In this document: in pieces, positions 2,161 through 31,285 of the stretch
Position numbering within the stretch: position 1 is the stretch's first letter
How the letters are laid out: each line of letters begins with the position of its first letter
IMG/VR virus record: IMGVR_UViG_3300007734_000655
Coordinates: 1 to 37,774 of that record
Length of the DNA: 37,774 bases
From: a virus
Strand: one strand, 5' to 3'
Translations under genes and position numbers: made by a program
Notes under the pieces: generated by a model
Told to the model about the DNA's origin: nothing
The model's input: only the letters and a program-made list of their open reading frames with translations
The model's database searches: none

Positions 2161-2191
2161 AGTGTAGCATAGGTTCGTGCTACAGTGTCAA
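2161..2191 (-). promoter_or_regulatory. Leftward early promoter with embedded palindrome
   Basis: On the minus strand a perfect -35 TTGACA (2191-2186) is followed after 19 bases by the extended -10 TGCTACACT (TACACT at 2166-2161). The spacer and -10 contain the inverted repeat GTAGCA/TGCTAC (2164-2183), which could be an operator. The arrangement would drive the Sak4 operon. The 19-base spacer is longer than usual; the TG extension may compensate. Confidence 0.55.
2164..2183. promoter_or_regulatory. Inverted repeat, possible operator between divergent early operons
   Basis: GTAGCA (2164-2169) and TGCTAC (2178-2183) form a perfect 6-base dyad with an 8-base centre. It lies in the 112-base gap between the divergent Sak4 and PAPS-reductase-like genes, overlapping the predicted leftward promoter. 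No repressor gene was recognised, so a host or phage regulator would be inference. Confidence 0.45.
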
Positions 2192-2218
2192 CAACTTTAT
2201 AACGAAAGATTTAAAAAG

Positions 2219-3046
2219 ATGCGTGACCCCTTCAAAATCACCGAGCCTACCTGCATCAGCTTCAGCGGTGGCCGCACCAGTGCCTATATGCTTTGGCGAG
2301 TGCTTGAGGCTCACCAGATGAGCCTGCCACCTGAAGCAGTGGTTTGTTTTGCTAACACCGGCAAGGAAGACGAAAAGACGCTTGAGTTCGTGCGGGATTG
2401 TGCTTTGAACTGGAACGTGCCGATCACTTGGCTGGAGTACGCCGAAGTGGACTTTACCATCGTTACGTTTGAGACAGCCAGCCGCAACGGTGAGCCGTTT
2501 GAAGCGCTGATCCGCAAGCGCAACTACCTGCCCAATCCAGTGACTCGCTTTTGCACCAGTGAGCTAAAGATTCGCCCGATTGGGCGCTACTTGCTGTCTT
2601 TGGGCATAGCAGAAACTAAGACTGAAGCCGCAAACATGAGCATGATTGGTATGAGAGCAGACGAACAGCGCCGCGCCGCCAAGATTGAAGACAAGTCGCG
2701 CATCCCCCTTGTAATAGCAGGCATTACCAAAGAAGACGTTGGCGCATTTTGGCGGAAGCAGTCGTTTGACCTCGGCCTGCCAAACAACAACGGCGTGACT
2801 ATGCACGGAAACTGCGATTTGTGCTTTCTAAAGGGGGGGGCGCAAGTGTTGTCCTTGATCGCTGAAAAACCAGAACGCGCTATTTGGTGGGCAAAAATGG
2901 AGGCACTGGCACTGGCAAGCAAGCCAAGCGGCGCAGTTTTCCGCTCCGACCGCCCCAGCTACGCCTCAATGCTGCAATACAGTAAAGATCAAACCAACCT
3001 TTTTGACCCTAACGAAGAAGCAATAGCCTGCTTTTGTGGAGACTAA
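2219..3046 (+). CDS. PAPS reductase/DndC-like PP-loop protein
   Basis: This 275-residue protein has the PP-loop SGGRTS at residues 16-21 in the context CISFSGGRTSAYM, typical of the phosphoadenosine-phosphosulfate reductase superfamily. Cysteines at 112 (RFCTSELK), 199 and 202 (NCDLC), and 271 and 273 (CFC) near the end could bind an iron-sulfur cluster. Known relatives act in sulfate reduction, tRNA thiolation or DndC-type DNA phosphorothioation; the phage versions are mostly uncharacterised. The ATG at 2219 is preferred over the GTG at 2177, which falls in the regulatory dyad. It heads the rightward early operon. An 8-G run (2833-2840) lies in frame. Confidence 0.8.
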   Translation: MRDPFKITEPTCISFSGGRTSAYMLWRVLEAHQMSLPPEAVVCFANTGKEDEKTLEFVRDCALNWNVPITWLEYAEVDFTIVTFETASRNGEPFEALIRKRNYLPNPVTRFCTSELKIRPIGRYLLSLGIAETKTEAANMSMIGMRADEQRRAAKIEDKSRIPLVIAGITKEDVGAFWRKQSFDLGLPNNNGVTMHGNCDLCFLKGGAQVLSLIAEKPERAIWWAKMEALALASKPSGAVFRSDRPSYASMLQYSKDQTNLFDPNEEAIACFCGD

Positions 3047-3051
3047 TTTTC

Positions 3052-5064
3052 ATGGCAGACCTCTCAAATATCCTCGGTGGCCCTTGGTCGCCACCAGCAC
3101 AAAAGCACATCAATTCACCAGAGGATCAGCTAAAAGATGCCATGTTGGCCGCAGGGCTAAAGCCACCTGACGCCATATCTCTTGACGGTAAGCTGCACCG
3201 CTTTAACTCAGGCACCAAAGGCGAGAAAGGCCACGACAAGCCTGGTTGGTATGTTGCCTTTTCTGATGGCGTACCGGCAGGTCGCTTTGGCTGCTGGCGC
3301 TCGGGATTTGAATCTAGTTGGAAAGCAGACATTGGCCGCAGCTTGACGCCCGTGGAGGAAATGGCACAGTCCCGCCGCTTGGCAGAAGCCAAGACCCAAC
3401 GTGATGCCGAGGTGAAAAAGGCGCGGGAGGTTGCTGCCAATACCGTCGATCTCATTTGGTCGCAGGCAGGGGCAGCAAGTCCAGAGCATCCATACCTGCA
3501 ACGAAAAGGCATCAAGGCGCACGGCGCACGGATTACGGGTGACGGCAGGCTGATGGTGCCGCTGTACAACTCAGACGGCGAACTCTCCAGCATCCAGTAC
3601 ATTGACCATCAAGGCGGCAAACTCTATCACCCTGGTGGACAGACCGGCTCAATGTACTGGCTGGTTGGCAGCATGGATGAGGCCACCACTCTCTACATTG
3701 CCGAGGGCTTTGCCACTGCCGCCACCATAGCCGAGGTCACAGGCCAGCCTTGCGCGGTGGCTTACAGCGCCAGCAATCTGGTGCCGGTGACCGGGATCCT
3801 GAAGGAAGGCCATCCGACGCTAGACATTTGCATTGTGGCTGATCATGACGCTAGTGGCGTGGGGCAGCGTTACGCCGAACAGGCCAGCGCAAAGTATGGG
3901 GTACGCATGACAACACCGCCAGTGCCGGGTGACGCCAATGATTATTTGCAAGCGGGGCATGATTTGGCTTTGCTGTTGACGCCATCAACTTCTGAATACA
4001 AACTTAACAAATTTATCATTACAGCTTCACAACCTGCACCGATCTCATGGCTTGTGAAGCACTGGATTCAAGACAAGGCGCTAGTGATGATTCACGGCCC
4101 GAGTGGTGGTGGTAAGACGTTTGTGGTTTTGGATTGGATGTTGCACATTGCCAGTGGCAAAGCCACTTGGTTCGGTCACAAGGTTCGACCCGGCAACATG
4201 GTGTACTTGGCTGGTGAAGGGCATCATGGACTGCGAAGCAGGATTGCAGCCTGGGGTCATAAAAACAACATTTCTGATCCAAGTTTTTGGTCATCTGAGG
4301 CTGGATGTGACCTCAATACTGCCGAGGGTTATCTGAAGGTGGTGGAGGCCATACGGGCGCTCAAGATCAAGCCTGATGTGATCACGGTAGACACGCTGCA
4401 CCGCTTCATGGCCGGTGACGAGAACAGCGCCCAAGACGCCAAGACCATGCTGGACGCCTGCGCAGCCCTCATGCAAGAGTTTGGCTGCACCGTCATTCTG
4501 GTACACCACACAGGCGTATCTGAGGAAGCCCAGCACCGGGCGCGAGGCTCAAGCGCATGGCGTGGTGCCTTGGACATTGAGATCAGCGTCATACCCGCCA
4601 AGGGCGACAAGTCCATTGAGATCGTCCAGCGCAAAAGCAAGGACGCCGAGATGGCAGCGCCGGTCTACGTTGACCTGGAATCGGTGGCGATACCCGGCTG
4701 GATGGATGAAGATGGCGAGGCGGTAACCAGCGCAGTGGTGGTGAAGGGAAAAGTGCCAGAGTCCAAGCAAAAGGATAAGTCGCTAGGGTTTGCAGATTTT
4801 GAGAAAGCCTGGTGGGCATCAGGCGCAGAAGAGCGAGGTGGCGCACCTTACCTCACCAAGTCAGTGATGCGCGATTGGGCCGTTACCAATGGCATATCAA
4901 ACTTTCCTGGCGCACTTGCGGCTGGTTCACGCCGAAACCTGATTGATGGAAAGAACGCCCGATACATCATCAATCTGATTGAAGCCAAGCTGATTGAAGT
5001 CCATGAAAACGGCTGGATTGTGATTGACCCCGGTACAGCATCAGGAATGATGTTGAAGAAGTGA
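3052..5064 (+). CDS. Toprim primase-helicase (bifunctional replication protein)
   Basis: This 670-residue protein has an N-terminal primase-type region, then a Toprim domain with the Glu motif YIAEGFATAAT (E218) and the DxD-type motif VADHDASG (D264, D266). A C-terminal RecA-like helicase domain carries Walker A GPSGGGKT (349-356), Walker B VITVDT (D447) and VILVHHTG. It should unwind DNA and prime synthesis at the fork. The ATG at 3052 has GGAG 10 bases upstream; a TTG at 3034 lies inside the previous gene. No obvious zinc-binding Cys set is seen at the N-terminus. No phage DNA polymerase accompanies it. Confidence 0.9.
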   Translation: MADLSNILGGPWSPPAQKHINSPEDQLKDAMLAAGLKPPDAISLDGKLHRFNSGTKGEKGHDKPGWYVAFSDGVPAGRFGCWRSGFESSWKADIGRSLTPVEEMAQSRRLAEAKTQRDAEVKKAREVAANTVDLIWSQAGAASPEHPYLQRKGIKAHGARITGDGRLMVPLYNSDGELSSIQYIDHQGGKLYHPGGQTGSMYWLVGSMDEATTLYIAEGFATAATIAEVTGQPCAVAYSASNLVPVTGILKEGHPTLDICIVADHDASGVGQRYAEQASAKYGVRMTTPPVPGDANDYLQAGHDLALLLTPSTSEYKLNKFIITASQPAPISWLVKHWIQDKALVMIHGPSGGGKTFVVLDWMLHIASGKATWFGHKVRPGNMVYLAGEGHHGLRSRIAAWGHKNNISDPSFWSSEAGCDLNTAEGYLKVVEAIRALKIKPDVITVDTLHRFMAGDENSAQDAKTMLDACAALMQEFGCTVILVHHTGVSEEAQHRARGSSAWRGALDIEISVIPAKGDKSIEIVQRKSKDAEMAAPVYVDLESVAIPGWMDEDGEAVTSAVVVKGKVPESKQKDKSLGFADFEKAWWASGAEERGGAPYLTKSVMRDWAVTNGISNFPGALAAGSRRNLIDGKNARYIINLIEAKLIEVHENGWIVIDPGTASGMMLKK

Positions 5065-6931: not shown

Positions 6932-7719
6932 CTTACGGCCCCGCCGTCCTCAAGCAGTGCGAACACTGCAAGAAAGAATACAAGTGCCCCAACAGCAGGG
7001 CAAGCAAGTCGCGTTTCTGCACAATTACCTGTCGCAATAAATTCGGTTCGTTTGAGCGCATTGAGTACACCTGTGTCACCTGCAACGACAAGTTTATGGC
7101 GCTGCCTGACCACGGCGCGGCGCGGCGTTTTTGTAGTCGTAAATGTTTTTTGAAAAACTGCGTACAGCCCGAAGATAAAGAATGTAAAAACTGTGGTGCC
7201 GTATTCACCGCAATGCGATCCGCTACCGTTACGCATGGCGATGGTCGGCGACTGTACTGCTCCAAAAAATGCTATACAGAACATTCCCGTAAGTTTGAGG
7301 AAAAGAACTGTAGTTTTTGTGGAGAACTTTTTTACCCTCACAGCGTTAGTCGCGACATGACGCAAAAAACATGTTCATTGAAATGTAGGACGGCGTTTTT
7401 CTCCGGTGTTAACGCACATAATTTTCAAGGAGGGGCGCACAAACCGCAAGACTCTGCCCACAAGATGGTGCTCATTGGTAAACGTAAAGGATACGTGGGC
7501 AAATACACAGCGGAACATCGCGTGTTTATTGCTAAGCACTTGGGAAGGATGTTGACGCGAAACGAAATCGTCATACATATAAATAACCAAGGGCTTGACA
7601 ACAGGCTGTCAAATTTATTTATATGTGCCTCAATGAGTGAGTACTCTCGTAGGAGGGGTGGGTCTTTGCCGTGGCCCAAGAAAAGTAACTTGGAAAATTT
7701 TAAGGAGCGCAACACATGA
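6928..7719 (+). CDS. HNH endonuclease with four tandem zinc ribbons
   Basis: This 263-residue protein has four regular CxxC...CxxxC modules: C11/C14 with C31/C35, C49/C52 with C69/C73, C86/C89 with C111/C115, and C128/C131 with C149/C153. A C-terminal HNH_3-like nuclease region reads EHRVFIAKHLGRML (H197), then IHINNQGLDNRLSNL (H217). The domain normally cuts DNA with a metal ion, and the zinc modules should bind DNA or bridge to a partner. It is richer in A+T than its neighbours and sits in the small-gene train, as a free-standing homing endonuclease would. SD GAAGGAG is good. Confidence 0.75.
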   Translation: MTYGPAVLKQCEHCKKEYKCPNSRASKSRFCTITCRNKFGSFERIEYTCVTCNDKFMALPDHGAARRFCSRKCFLKNCVQPEDKECKNCGAVFTAMRSATVTHGDGRRLYCSKKCYTEHSRKFEEKNCSFCGELFYPHSVSRDMTQKTCSLKCRTAFFSGVNAHNFQGGAHKPQDSAHKMVLIGKRKGYVGKYTAEHRVFIAKHLGRMLTRNEIVIHINNQGLDNRLSNLFICASMSEYSRRRGGSLPWPKKSNLENFKERNT

Positions 7720-19597: not shown

Positions 19598-20014
19598 TTA
19601 CGCTGCGCCGTGAATGACTGAGAAATTGATAATTACCGCTTCAGAGTATGAAGTGGCAGCAGTCAGATTTCGCAACGTAATCAAGGCAGAACCAGCAGCC
19701 AAATATGAAACGTAAGTTGTGTAAGCACCAAGCGCACTACCAGTGGTATTGCTTGATACGTTCACAATGATGGTGTCATTGATGGAAATCATGCTGTTGG
19801 TCAGAATAAACGAAACAGCGGTGGCTCCAGCCAAAGCTGCGTTGTTCATCGTAATGCGCCCAGCAGACTTGTTCAGAGTTACCCCTGTGCCTTTGTCTGT
19901 TGCTTGCGTTACGGTGCCTTGAGCAGCCGTAGAGTAGCCAATTTCTTGGCTTGCGTAGCAGGTAGTAAATTCCGGGTCGGCGTAAGCAACGCCGATTGGT
20001 TGGGTATTGGGCAT
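19598..20014 (-). CDS. Virion structural protein, beta-rich, 138 aa
   Basis: This protein contains SAGRITMNNAALAGATAVSF, ILTNSMISINDTIIVNVSS and LITLRNLTAATSYSEAVIINF, a beta-sandwich pattern common to small phage structural proteins. Its place just after the coat gene suggests decoration or head completion. AAAAGGACATACC stands before the ATG, directly behind a UUCG hairpin. Confidence 0.7.
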   Translation of the reverse strand: MPNTQPIGVAYADPEFTTCYASQEIGYSTAAQGTVTQATDKGTGVTLNKSAGRITMNNAALAGATAVSFILTNSMISINDTIIVNVSSNTTGSALGAYTTYVSYLAAGSALITLRNLTAATSYSEAVIINFSVIHGAA

Positions 20015-23193: not shown

Positions 23194-24483
23194 TTAAAGA
23201 TTAGCCATTGCAACCCAAGTGCCTGGTGTTCCAGCCACCGTACACATCCAACCAATAGGTTGACCAACTGTTGCGGATAAGTTGTAGCAGATATCACCTT
23301 GAATCCAAGCTACAAGTTGAGTTCCTGTTCTGGCAGAAGGTATATCGTTGCCCCAATGCAATTTTGAGTTGCTGACTTGGACATAATGGCTGCTTGGGTG
23401 AACTGATGATCCAGATGCACCAGATAACCCTAAACCAAACGAGAATTTAGTTGCGTTTGCGTCCAACGATCCACCGTTAATTACACTGACGCTGTTTCGG
23501 TAATAATTTACAGATTGCAATGTTCCATCACCAACATAAACAAGCCATGAAGGTGCGTAATAATTTTCTTGCTTTGGGCCAAATCCAGTAAGAAGAGATT
23601 TATATTGCCAAATTTGTGTTGGTGTATTGCTTGTTTTTTCAACATATGGATTGCCAAATGCTGAAGTTATGTGGCCTTGAAAGTTGTTGCCAATAAAATA
23701 ATTATTGGTGTTGCCTTCCATATCGGTTTCAAACACACCGCCATATGAATTATCGGCAACATAGATACCGTACTCAAACTGCTCAAGCGTGCCGCCATAC
23801 ATACAAGTGCCAATACCATTGGTAAGCGCACTCATGTAAATGCCGTAAGTACCAACACGGGGGATTCCTGCCGACAAAATTCCAGCAGCCCAAAAGTTGT
23901 AAATTGAAACCGTTGTCCAAGTAGCGGTATTAATGTTTGCGCCATCCATTAAAATGCCATATTTGAACTGAAGTGCGTAACTATTGGAAATAGTGATTCC
24001 ACCAGAAAAACCAACGCCATCGTACAGGTAAATGCCAGCGCCAAGAGTTGTTGCGCCAATAGCAGTAGCATCAAGATACACTGCATCAATGGAGCAGTTT
24101 CGAGAGTTGTTGCCTGCTTGAATAGCGTTAGAACCTATTTGGTAAGTATAGATACTAAGTGCAGCAATTCGACCACCCCAAGTGCTTGCAATAATACAAC
24201 TGCCACCATGTTGGCATTGAAGTTTAGTTCCATCTTTTCCATCACCAATCAACCAGTTATTGCCTGAGATTGTCAACGTAGCTTCTAGTCGATAAGTACC
24301 TGCTGGCAACCGCAAAACTTTTTTAGCCGCAGTTGCATCAGTAATAGCTGCTTGAACAGCAGTTGCAACATTAAGACTTGCAGTGTTGCTTGTTACATCC
24401 GCAATCTGAGCAGGCGTCATGTAATCAAATGCGTTGATTACCTCGCCTTGAATCATTGAATAGGAAACTTTTGTAAGTGACAT
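23194..24483 (-). CDS. Tailspike with pectate-lyase-like beta-helix
   Basis: This 429-residue protein has an N-terminal region with AVQAAITDATAAKKVLRLPA and GTYRLEATLTISGNNWLIGD, the typical start of a Pectate_lyase_3 beta-helix. Repeated short strands follow (GAGIYLYDGVGFSGGITISN, FKYGILMDG). It probably recognises, and may cleave, a surface polysaccharide. The DNA is richer in A+T than its neighbours, as expected of an exchangeable receptor-binding gene. SD GGAAATTAACT. Confidence 0.8.
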   Translation of the reverse strand: MSLTKVSYSMIQGEVINAFDYMTPAQIADVTSNTASLNVATAVQAAITDATAAKKVLRLPAGTYRLEATLTISGNNWLIGDGKDGTKLQCQHGGSCIIASTWGGRIAALSIYTYQIGSNAIQAGNNSRNCSIDAVYLDATAIGATTLGAGIYLYDGVGFSGGITISNSYALQFKYGILMDGANINTATWTTVSIYNFWAAGILSAGIPRVGTYGIYMSALTNGIGTCMYGGTLEQFEYGIYVADNSYGGVFETDMEGNTNNYFIGNNFQGHITSAFGNPYVEKTSNTPTQIWQYKSLLTGFGPKQENYYAPSWLVYVGDGTLQSVNYYRNSVSVINGGSLDANATKFSFGLGLSGASGSSVHPSSHYVQVSNSKLHWGNDIPSARTGTQLVAWIQGDICYNLSATVGQPIGWMCTVAGTPGTWVAMANL

Positions 24484-24529
24484 AGTTAATTTCCTACTTA
24501 GATTCTAATACTGTTAATCTTGCGGTTAA

Positions 24530-25183
24530 TCATGGTTTGATTTCAAGTTGTGCGACACGGGCGCGGAGGGATTGGAGTTCTGCAATCAGGTTGGCAATGA
24601 TTTCGGCGCTGGAATAATCCATGCCTTGCATCTCTTCGCCGTCTTTAGTGCCTGTTGCCACCGTGGTGCGGCTGGCCTCTTGGACTTCATGGGCAATCAG
24701 GCCAACAAAGGTAGCGCCGTCCGCTTTCCATGTGCCTTCAACGGGCTTTAAGGAGTCGATGTATGCGCCACTGGTGGTGATAGGGCCAGTGATGTTTTTT
24801 AGGCGGTAGTCAGACGATGTATTGTAAGCAGTCGTTGATGTTGTTGATTCTATAGAGCCAATGCGTGATGTGTTTGTCCCAGTAAAGAAATCAATCTGAC
24901 GCATTGTTCCAGAACCATTGGTATTAATGCAACTAAGCGATGTTTGAGTTGCCGATCCATCATTACTAACAATTACCCTGCCGCCAAATGATGCGCTTGT
25001 AGTCCCCACCAACAAACTTGTCCCATCAAAATTTAGCACAGACCCAGAGGCAAGGGTTGTTGATCCTGATGCGTACACTACTCCGTTAACGGTGTAGCTA
25101 GTAAGACCTGTGCCACCATTTGCTACTGGAAGAGTGCCTGTAATCCTGCTGGCACTAATAACTGAATTTGCTACTTTTAACAT
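24530..25183 (-). CDS. Tail fibre with C-terminal S74 chaperone domain
   Basis: This 217-residue protein contains fibre-type beta repeats (GTLPVANGGTGLTSYTVNG) and an intramolecular chaperone (peptidase S74): SSDYRLKN near residues 122-129, GLIAHEVQEASRT, then a coiled coil AEIIANLIAELQSLRARVAQ. The S74 domain helps trimer folding and can cut itself off before the Ser of SDYRLK. It is short for a fibre, so it probably attaches to another tail protein. Confidence 0.8.
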   Translation of the reverse strand: MLKVANSVISASRITGTLPVANGGTGLTSYTVNGVVYASGSTTLASGSVLNFDGTSLLVGTTSASFGGRVIVSNDGSATQTSLSCINTNGSGTMRQIDFFTGTNTSRIGSIESTTSTTAYNTSSDYRLKNITGPITTSGAYIDSLKPVEGTWKADGATFVGLIAHEVQEASRTTVATGTKDGEEMQGMDYSSAEIIANLIAELQSLRARVAQLEIKP

Positions 25184-29823: not shown

Positions 29824-30300
29824 CTACCCGAGATTGTCCTCGCCTTGCACATCATGCACATTCGATGCACTCAGGCGCGGTGTAACGTCCACAACGTTTA
29901 CAAGCCTAGCCTGTGCAGCTTGGAGCGCTCCACTAATACTAATGCGTGTGTCACTGACTGACACGTCCAGCCTATCGCCGTAGACTTTCGGAGCTAGTTT
30001 AGAGGCTCTCCAACGCATCGAATCGAGCACAACCCGTGCAGCATGGCTATCCATCGTGCCAGCAGCTACAGCCTCCTCCACAGCCTCCATGCGGTCGAAT
30101 AGGGTATCGGCTTGGGCAGTCCGAGCGCGCGCGTACCTGGTGGCAAGAGCGGCATCGTCCCGCATCCACCGAATCACAGTCGTGTGATCTGGCATGCCAT
30201 CCATGCGACACACTTCCCGCATTGACTTGCCGGTTTCAATCTGCACCAGCAAAGCATCCACCATCGCATTTTTTGTTGCATCGTCATACGCCACATACAT
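29824..30300 (-). CDS. Terminase small subunit
   Basis: This 158-residue protein has a helix-turn-helix-like N-terminus (ALLVQIETGKSMREVCRMDG then DHTTVIRWMRDDAALATRYA) and the helical ARTAQADTLFDRMEAVEE with VVLDSMRWRASKLAPKVYGD, as in TerS proteins. It should recognise the packaging site and recruit TerL. P22 gp3 is 162 residues. It is the first gene of the leftward late operon, next to the palindrome cluster. AGGGG precedes the ATG by nine bases. Confidence 0.8.
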   Translation of the reverse strand: MYVAYDDATKNAMVDALLVQIETGKSMREVCRMDGMPDHTTVIRWMRDDAALATRYARARTAQADTLFDRMEAVEEAVAAGTMDSHAARVVLDSMRWRASKLAPKVYGDRLDVSVSDTRISISGALQAAQARLVNVVDVTPRLSASNVHDVQGEDNLG

Positions 30301-30619
30301 GTTAGTAACCCCTAACTTAATTTACTGACCACCTGGTCAGCAATGCACCATTTTATGCACAATGGTCTTACACAATTGCACATATCTTAAGATATATGTG
30401 CATGCAGTGTAAGGGTATACCCTTGTTTTGTCACAATCTTACACAATGCATTGTGCATACATTGTGTAAGAAATGTAAGGGTAAACACCTAGAAAATAGT
30501 GCGATAAAAGATGTTGCAGTAGCATTGACTGCGATAGAATCTGTTACATGGTGTAGCAATAGGGCTGCACCAAAGCCAGGGCTAATGGGCAATTATGCCA
30601 AATCAACCTAAGGACAATT
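30301..30619. promoter_or_regulatory. Non-coding control region with nested palindromes; origin or promoter candidate
   Basis: This gap between divergent TerS and clamp-like genes holds at least four dyads: CTGACCA/TGGTCAG (30325-30340), ATATCTTAAGATAT (30382-30395, extended to TGCA ends at 30377-30402), AAGGGTATACCCTT (30411-30424), and an 11-bp-arm repeat CTTACACAATG/CATTGTGTAAG (30438-30470) that itself contains CACAATGCATTGTG. A -10-like TAGAAT lies at 30535-30540 with TTGCAG 15 bases upstream. SD AAGGA precedes ATG 30620. No ORF was found here. Confidence 0.7.
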
Positions 30620-31285
30620 ATGGAACACGCAACTATCGAAACCACCACCACCACTGTCGACAATGATCTGATGATCATGCCAGGGCATTTAGCAGCTATT
30701 GCCATGTTCGCAGCTAAGAAAGATATTCGGCACTATCTGATGGGTGTTTGCATTGATACCGGCCCCACTGGTGCATTTTTAATCGCTACCTGCGGGCACA
30801 CTGTCGCAGTGCATCAAATTGACACTGTGGCGCGACCTGCTGGTCAACTTATCATGCCACTAATGCCACTTGTTAGCATGATCAAGGCAAACAGGCGCGT
30901 CGGTATCAAGTTAACCCTGCCTTCTGGTTTTGCAGGAACCTATAACAACAATATGCGAGTGAAACGTCAGGTAACGCTCGAATCATTGAAGGGTGAAATT
31001 GCAATTATCCCTGAGCTGGACGGTATTTTCCCGGACTGGCGCCGAGTGGCGCGGTATGACGATGCACCATACCCGCACCAGGTATTTTTTAACCCTCACT
31101 ATCTGGTCCGAGTGGCCGATGCTGCTGATCTGATCAGTGAACGTAAATTCTCGGTCCAAGTTCGTCCAGGTGGCACTGGTGTCGGGTTTGCCACATTGGA
31201 CCATGAGGGTAAGACAGTGGCCTACATCATGCCAATCAGGGGCACCATTGCCGATCTGCCCAGCAAGCCCACAATGACCTACTGA
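30620..31285 (+). CDS. Sliding clamp-like protein (DNA pol III beta-type)
   Basis: This 221-residue protein contains KKDIRHYLMGVCID (34-47), LIATCGHTVAVHQ (54-66), matching the clamp motif LxATDGHRLA except that Asp is Cys58, and IIPELDGIFPDWRRVARYD, matching the beta-clamp DGxFPDYRRV. Bacterial beta clamps are about 366 residues with three domains; this protein is shorter and resembles phage clamp-like homologues. It may tether host Pol III or compete with the host clamp. It heads a separate rightward operon. Confidence 0.65.
   Translation: MEHATIETTTTTVDNDLMIMPGHLAAIAMFAAKKDIRHYLMGVCIDTGPTGAFLIATCGHTVAVHQIDTVARPAGQLIMPLMPLVSMIKANRRVGIKLTLPSGFAGTYNNNMRVKRQVTLESLKGEIAIIPELDGIFPDWRRVARYDDAPYPHQVFFNPHYLVRVADAADLISERKFSVQVRPGGTGVGFATLDHEGKTVAYIMPIRGTIADLPSKPTMTY

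Follow-up and report, generated by a model that had tools for sequence, protein, structure and literature searches.

The element at positions 30356-30471 of the window, i.e. the whole analysed stretch of 37,774 nucleotides, is most probably (roughly 85%) a phage replication origin whose iterons the phage's own primase-helicase would read with its C-terminus. It is located in the interval 30301-30619 between terS, encoding an Sf6-type small terminase (Pfam; 29824-30300, minus strand), and a clamp-like gene (30620-31285, plus strand). An origin was one of the options raised in a preliminary description of this DNA, and it is strongly supported by the covariation of the array with the primase-helicase C-terminus and by arrays that directly follow that gene in isolated phages. 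A group of freshwater phages that is widespread and unannotated would thus gain a specific initiator and origin.

All four dyads described previously were found between terS and the clamp-like gene. These are CTGACCA/TGGTCAG (30325-30331/30334-30340), ATATCTTAAGATAT (30382-30395), the palindrome AAGGGTATACCCTT (30411-30424), an accessory operator-like element that is independent of the word type (see below), and CTTACACAATG/CATTGTGTAAG (30438-30448/30460-30470), with the palindrome CACAATGCATTGTG (30442-30455) inside and overlapping it. Their density is indeed far above chance. Perfect palindromes of at least 14 bp occur only three times in the 37.8-kb window, all within 75 bp, and simulations with the interval's own dinucleotide content gave three 14-mers in 0 of 20,000 cases and two in 33. 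The local 6-mer repeat score at the array is the maximum of the window and lies above all 5,000 simulations, and the local-repeat scan revealed no other comparable iteron cluster in the window.

As a unit, the four dyads hold only in part. Relatives have retained two of them, namely the inverted pair CTTACACAAT/ATTGTGTAAG and the hairpin at the centre. The other two do not belong to the core: of 50 relatives, only 2 have a perfect CTGACCA dyad, and 25 contain AGGGTWWACCCT in the region of the array. Judged by retention in relatives, the conserved parts are the hairpin at 30377-30402, with an outer stem at 30367-30373/30407-30413, and the inverted words at 30437-30471. Iteron cluster 1 (30356-30413) comprises TGCACA (30356), TTACACA (30368) and TGCACA (30377) on the plus strand and complements at ~30397 and ~30407 on the minus strand, with a word spacing of 9-12 bp within each arm. 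Iteron cluster 2 (30437-30471) consists of the inverted words TCTTACACAAT ... TTGTGCA ... ATTGTGTAAGA, and relatives have a cluster at the homologous position. Over the whole array, TTACACA and TGCACA occur in both orientations 9-13 bp apart, save at two places, the loop of the hairpin and the T-rich block GTTTTGTC (30425-30432, plus strand) that separates the two clusters. As in iteron origins, short repeats of one motif are clustered in non-coding DNA.

More than 100 relatives were collected in two scans of viral contigs and one pattern scan; a blastn search of phage records with the 1.5-kb region yielded no near relatives. The array is conserved as an architecture, not as a sequence, and homologous, differently worded clusters are found in ~50 relatives, all independently assembled contigs. 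Each phage carries one short word that recurs in either orientation at intervals of about 10 bp and surrounds a slipped hairpin. The word is TTACACAA in the window and TGCAC, TGCGT, GCATC/GATTCA, TGCATAGT/AACTATGC, TTCAC or GCACC elsewhere, and the locus-specific word fills both hairpin arms, the outer stem and the second cluster. Common to the word types are a right-hand AGGGTAAAC element (46 of 50) and a GTTTTG(T/C)C-like block (GTTTTGCC/GTTTTGTC-like; 45 of 50), the latter count being biased upward because the block itself was used for detection.

The preliminary description had suggested looking for conserved arms with compensatory changes, and these were found in the central slipped hairpin TGCACATATCTTAAGATATATGTGCA. 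In an alignment of 15 distinct 26-mers, 98.7% of the cells in the arms are paired, and seven of the ten pairs have changed on both sides, with strict Watson-Crick replacements and no one-sided change. The two arms are unequal in most of the ~50 loci, one being 1-3 nt longer by micro-duplication.

The proposed cognate initiator is a Toprim primase/RepA-like helicase of 676 aa (3034-5064, plus strand), whose homologues start at Met 7 (base 3052). It contains Toprim_3 and AAA_25 domains, and the helicase domain matches RSF1010 RepA (1g8y, E=1.2e-4), i.e. a hexameric helicase of the RepA family. The AlphaFold model of the whole protein is poor (pLDDT 42). The last 98 residues (579-676; 4768-5061, plus strand) were modelled at pLDDT 80 with the order H-E-H-H-H-E-E and are predicted to be winged-helix-like: many winged-helix proteins are among the structural neighbours (Z ~6), with weak Foldseek matches (E of at least 0.14). 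The P4 origin-binding domain is absent among the structural matches listed for the C-terminus, an absence of no evidential weight, and sequence searches of this part against PDB and Pfam gave nothing significant. No relative was found in the host and prophage genome contigs scanned with the primase. Just upstream of the primase-helicase gene, the window encodes a phosphoadenosine phosphosulfate reductase-like protein (2177-3046), and the isolates described below encode a small transcriptional regulator there.

Primase-helicases were collected from the same contigs as the arrays. Their alignment is near-constant up to residue ~609 and again from ~644, and the stretch between switches type together with the word. 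In the window, this hypervariable patch, SVMRDW...GKNAR, spans residues 610-643 (4861-4962, plus strand) and, in the predicted model, covers the helix-turn-helix half of the winged-helix-like fold. The word TTACACAA pairs with the patch ...FPGAKADGSRRNLIDGKNARYI, AACTATGC with ...FPKSKEKGSRRNLIDGK-APYI, GCATC with ...GLKNKKYTKDSLRAQIPADGNKGKYI, TGCGT with ...EGTKQKRITDAIKPDLISGSFI and TGCAC with ...LIGTKSKTWRNILREDGTFI. The 6-mer similarity of the arrays correlates with that of the patch at r=0.85, and given the rest of the protein the partial Mantel correlation is 0.76 (p=0.0002; 24 phages in both cases), where the sequences are related and the independent word types number only about seven. 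The patch was delimited with the alignment in view; the unbiased version, a sliding-window scan, peaks at 0.83-0.87 and only at the C-terminus. For the same 14 contigs, the correlation is 0.87 for the patch, 0.63 for primase residues 1-620 and 0.21 for TerS. In L192/L058 the primase is divergent overall, yet the patch is of the TTACACAA type and the words are TTACACAA. Linkage cannot explain the association between word and patch, as the array of the window lineage is ~9 kb away from the primase-helicase gene and adjoins terS. The covariation is consistent with repeats that are specific for the DNA-binding domain of a cognate initiator, as in iteron origins.

Among cultured phages, the primase-helicase has its closest relatives (51-55% identity) in Salicola phage CGphi29, Idiomarinaceae phage 1N2-2 and the Alteromonas phages XX1924 and PB15. 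Their arrays were identified by a local-repeat scan without the use of the window sequence, and in all four isolates the array starts right after the stop codon of the primase-helicase gene. The word is GGTACA in 1N2-2 (11 copies), GGTTCA in XX1924 and PB15 (12 copies each) and GGGACA in CGphi29 (6 copies). XX1924 and PB15 have near-identical proteins and the same word, and the others differ. Among the local repeat clusters of each genome, the array ranks second in CGphi29 and first in the other three isolates. A word-flanked central hairpin of the same kind is present in at least 1N2-2 and PB15; in these two phages the left hairpin arm is the longer, and among the freshwater phages it is mostly the right arm. 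The four isolates thereby also gain candidate origins directly downstream of the primase-helicase gene (L284, ~7141-7360; L285, 34201-34420; L286, ~24321-24545; L287, ~19741-19985). Their records carry no origin annotation, and no paper on an origin in these four phages was found. No clear array follows the gene in the more distant relative MW202475 (ct76p945; 43%).

We infer an origin that would operate as follows. The iterons of 6-8 bp, in both orientations and ~10 bp apart, would be bound by the winged-helix C-terminus of the primase-helicase. Binding at the two clusters around the T-rich GTTTTGYC block and the perfect-stem hairpin, if the latter forms, would load the helicase, which would open the DNA and permit priming, and other replication proteins would then extend. 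In the window lineage, the origin would have moved from its place behind the initiator gene, as seen in the isolates, to a place beside terS. Several points speak against an origin: the GC skew has no turning point at 30.4 kb, where the preliminary description had suggested looking for one, the rest of the primase also correlates with the array (0.63, see above), the independent word types are few, the patch was delimited after inspection, the Foldseek matches of the C-terminus are weak, and the array of the window lineage lies at a divergent-promoter junction ~9 kb from the initiator gene. Iteron origins frequently adjoin the gene of their initiator, but need not do so. As for DnaA boxes, TTATGCACA is found in the window and TTATCCACA in some relatives, with no conservation in others.

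A multi-operator switch, which was also suggested initially, is unnecessary for the core of the element, but its edges carry AAGGGTAWACCCTT-like and promoter elements with a possible role in transcriptional regulation. The right border (30477-30552, plus strand), with a AAGGGTAAACACCTAG element and a conserved AATCTGTTACATGG, is likely a rightward early promoter, as judged from its sequence; a good sigma-70 hexamer pair was not found there, and the search for terminators and sigma-70 promoters inside the array gave nothing convincing. The sequence AAGGGTAAACACCTAGNAAATA (30477-30498) is present exactly in 77 viral contigs, several of which have no iteron array (L118, L122, L132, L163 and L186), and looks like an early-promoter or operator element common to otherwise diverse phages. 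The AAGGGTAAACACCTAG element is related to the AAGGGTATACCCTT palindrome and occurs independently in the 77 contigs; as some contigs have it but no array, it is a part of its own. In its stronger form, this explanation regards the whole element as an operator array, by which the primase-helicase C-terminus or a linked regulator controls divergent late and early promoters, with replication starting elsewhere. The divergent genes on both sides, the promoter-like conserved edges and the AAGGGTAWACCCTT elements fit such an array, and covariation alone indicates recognition, not initiation. It is nevertheless unlikely: the arrays of the four isolates are located directly downstream of the initiator gene and not at the same divergent promoter, the window contains no comparable second cluster, and recognition by a primase-helicase most simply means initiation. 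A second, regulatory role of the origin at the divergent-promoter junction is possible.

The third proposal of the preliminary description, a packaging start, would make the element a pac or cos site bound by the adjacent TerS. In line with this, nearly all relatives with a readable site have the element immediately before terS, L246 and L254 have it immediately before other terminases, and there is some correlation with full-length TerS. Over 50 loci, however, the word correlates with TerS at r=0.06 (N-terminus) or 0.23 (whole protein), and specificity is not matched to TerS. Identical TerS N-termini, the DNA-binding part, are combined with different words (L001/L041 and L042/L044), and conversely N-termini with only 21-30% identity share the same words. 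Moreover, the array is 5-6 kb away from terS in PB15 and XX1924, contigs run through the array, and the window's own ends overlap elsewhere. The proposal is contradicted by the TerS comparison, by which a TerS-bound pac array was rejected, and a packaging site is accordingly very improbable.

The terminase neighbourhood itself varies. In the contigs L246 (68 kb) and L254, an array of the same type borders on terminase large subunits that are non-homologous (PHROG 38 versus PHROG 2). It is thus not part of one terminase cassette, and packaging modules have been exchanged next to a retained, probable origin. The location beside terS as well as beside unrelated terminases suggests that the origin moved with, or next to, the start of the late operon. 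The genes to the right of the array vary, and most relatives have 0.9-1.8 kb of other sequence separating TerS from the clamp-like gene. The clamp-like protein of the window matches PHROG 947 (processivity factor) weakly and PHROG 3007 ('RusA-like') more strongly; the 'RusA-like' label may be a mis-annotation. Over 1.1 kb, the contig ends (1-1106 and 36654-37774) share 88% identity and carry one pair of genes in common, an SSB-like gene and PHROG 2480, with 94-96% amino acid identity. The contig probably represents a circularly permuted genome in full, whose overlap was put together from two strain variants.

The strong compensatory changes would also fit transcription of the region into a structured non-coding RNA or leader, and both strands fold better than shuffled sequences (z -4.5 and -6.9). 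Nonetheless, the 35 double changes in the hairpin include no G-U or one-sided intermediates, and the missing G-U intermediates favour a constraint at the DNA rather than the RNA level. Over 48 hairpins, 525 Watson-Crick pairs stand against only a handful of mismatches, and the sole G-T stems from a false positive (L136), although these hairpins were picked by Watson-Crick pairing, which overstates the perfection and biases the G-U count. The region has no match in Rfam, so that neither a known family nor RNA-type covariation including G-U was found, and the words turn over together with a DNA-binding domain. An RNA is hence about as improbable as a packaging site. Palindromes arising by chance or as an assembly artefact are practically negligible as an explanation, considering the simulations above and the retention of the array in ~50 independent contigs and four sequenced isolates.

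If the element is the replication origin, its specificity might, as a tentative proposal, be a rapidly exchangeable cassette, with iterons and both hairpin arms rewritten in concert between near-identical flanks and ~35 residues of the primase-helicase swapped to match. There would then be many mutually non-cross-reacting replication types in one group of lake-water phages, and the exchange would perhaps protect against co-infecting phages or satellites that parasitise or interfere. Provided that concerted rewriting is adaptive, phage origins would diversify like incompatibility groups, with a bearing on the replication competition of co-infecting phages and satellites. The approximately seven word types, matched to patches on a near-constant scaffold, represent a natural dataset for a protein-DNA recognition code.

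Several known systems resemble the proposed origin in part. The helicase of the P4 alpha protein is of the SF3 type, whereas that of the window is RepA/AAA_25-like and not of the SF3/D5 type. The origin of the window further differs from that of P4 by its conserved hairpin and its distance of ~9 kb from the initiator gene, and no second word cluster resembling the crr region was found in the window. Because of the differing helicase class and the lack of a crr-like second region, the element was not filed as a P4-type replicon. The likeness to P4 alpha/ori consists in the iterons and in a Toprim primase, a helicase and a (here predicted) winged helix in one polypeptide: P4 alpha is outlined in PMC4234260 (citing Ziegelin and Lanka 1995 and Yeo et al. 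2002) as a Toprim-type primase and helicase with a C-terminal winged-helix origin-binding domain that reads iterons.

In the pri-rep systems of PICI/SaPI, two iteron sets flank an AT-rich region, and four allelic variants of Pri-Rep are known in E. coli (PMC6092414). Two iteron sets around a weak region and allele-specific initiators are thus shared features. The window, in contrast, belongs to a freshwater phage and not to a satellite, and has a central hairpin, a short T-rich block only and an unrelated initiator architecture. At oriV of RSF1010, as summarised in PMC4234260, RepC binds the iterons, RepA unwinds and RepB' primes at the stem-loops ssiA/ssiB. A RepA-like helicase, iterons and short stem-loops at the origin are common to both. 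In the window, however, helicase, primase and recognition domain are fused, the covarying element being the primase-helicase's own C-terminus in place of a separate iteron-binding RepC, and the hairpin is at most a candidate priming site. In pRN1, the primase-helicase ORF904 ends in a winged helix, and the stem-loop origin downstream of its gene also works when moved (PMC4234260). pRN1 resembles the system proposed here in its C-terminal winged helix (predicted in the window) and in a stem-loop origin that is conserved in structure and variable in sequence, but has an archaeo-eukaryotic primase, an SF3 helicase and no iterons, and no covariation with the protein is reported in PMC4234260. Geminiviruses, as ssDNA plant viruses with a rolling-circle Rep, provide an evolutionary parallel only: their iterons are under diversifying change that is matched by changes in the recognition segment of Rep (PMC12548392).
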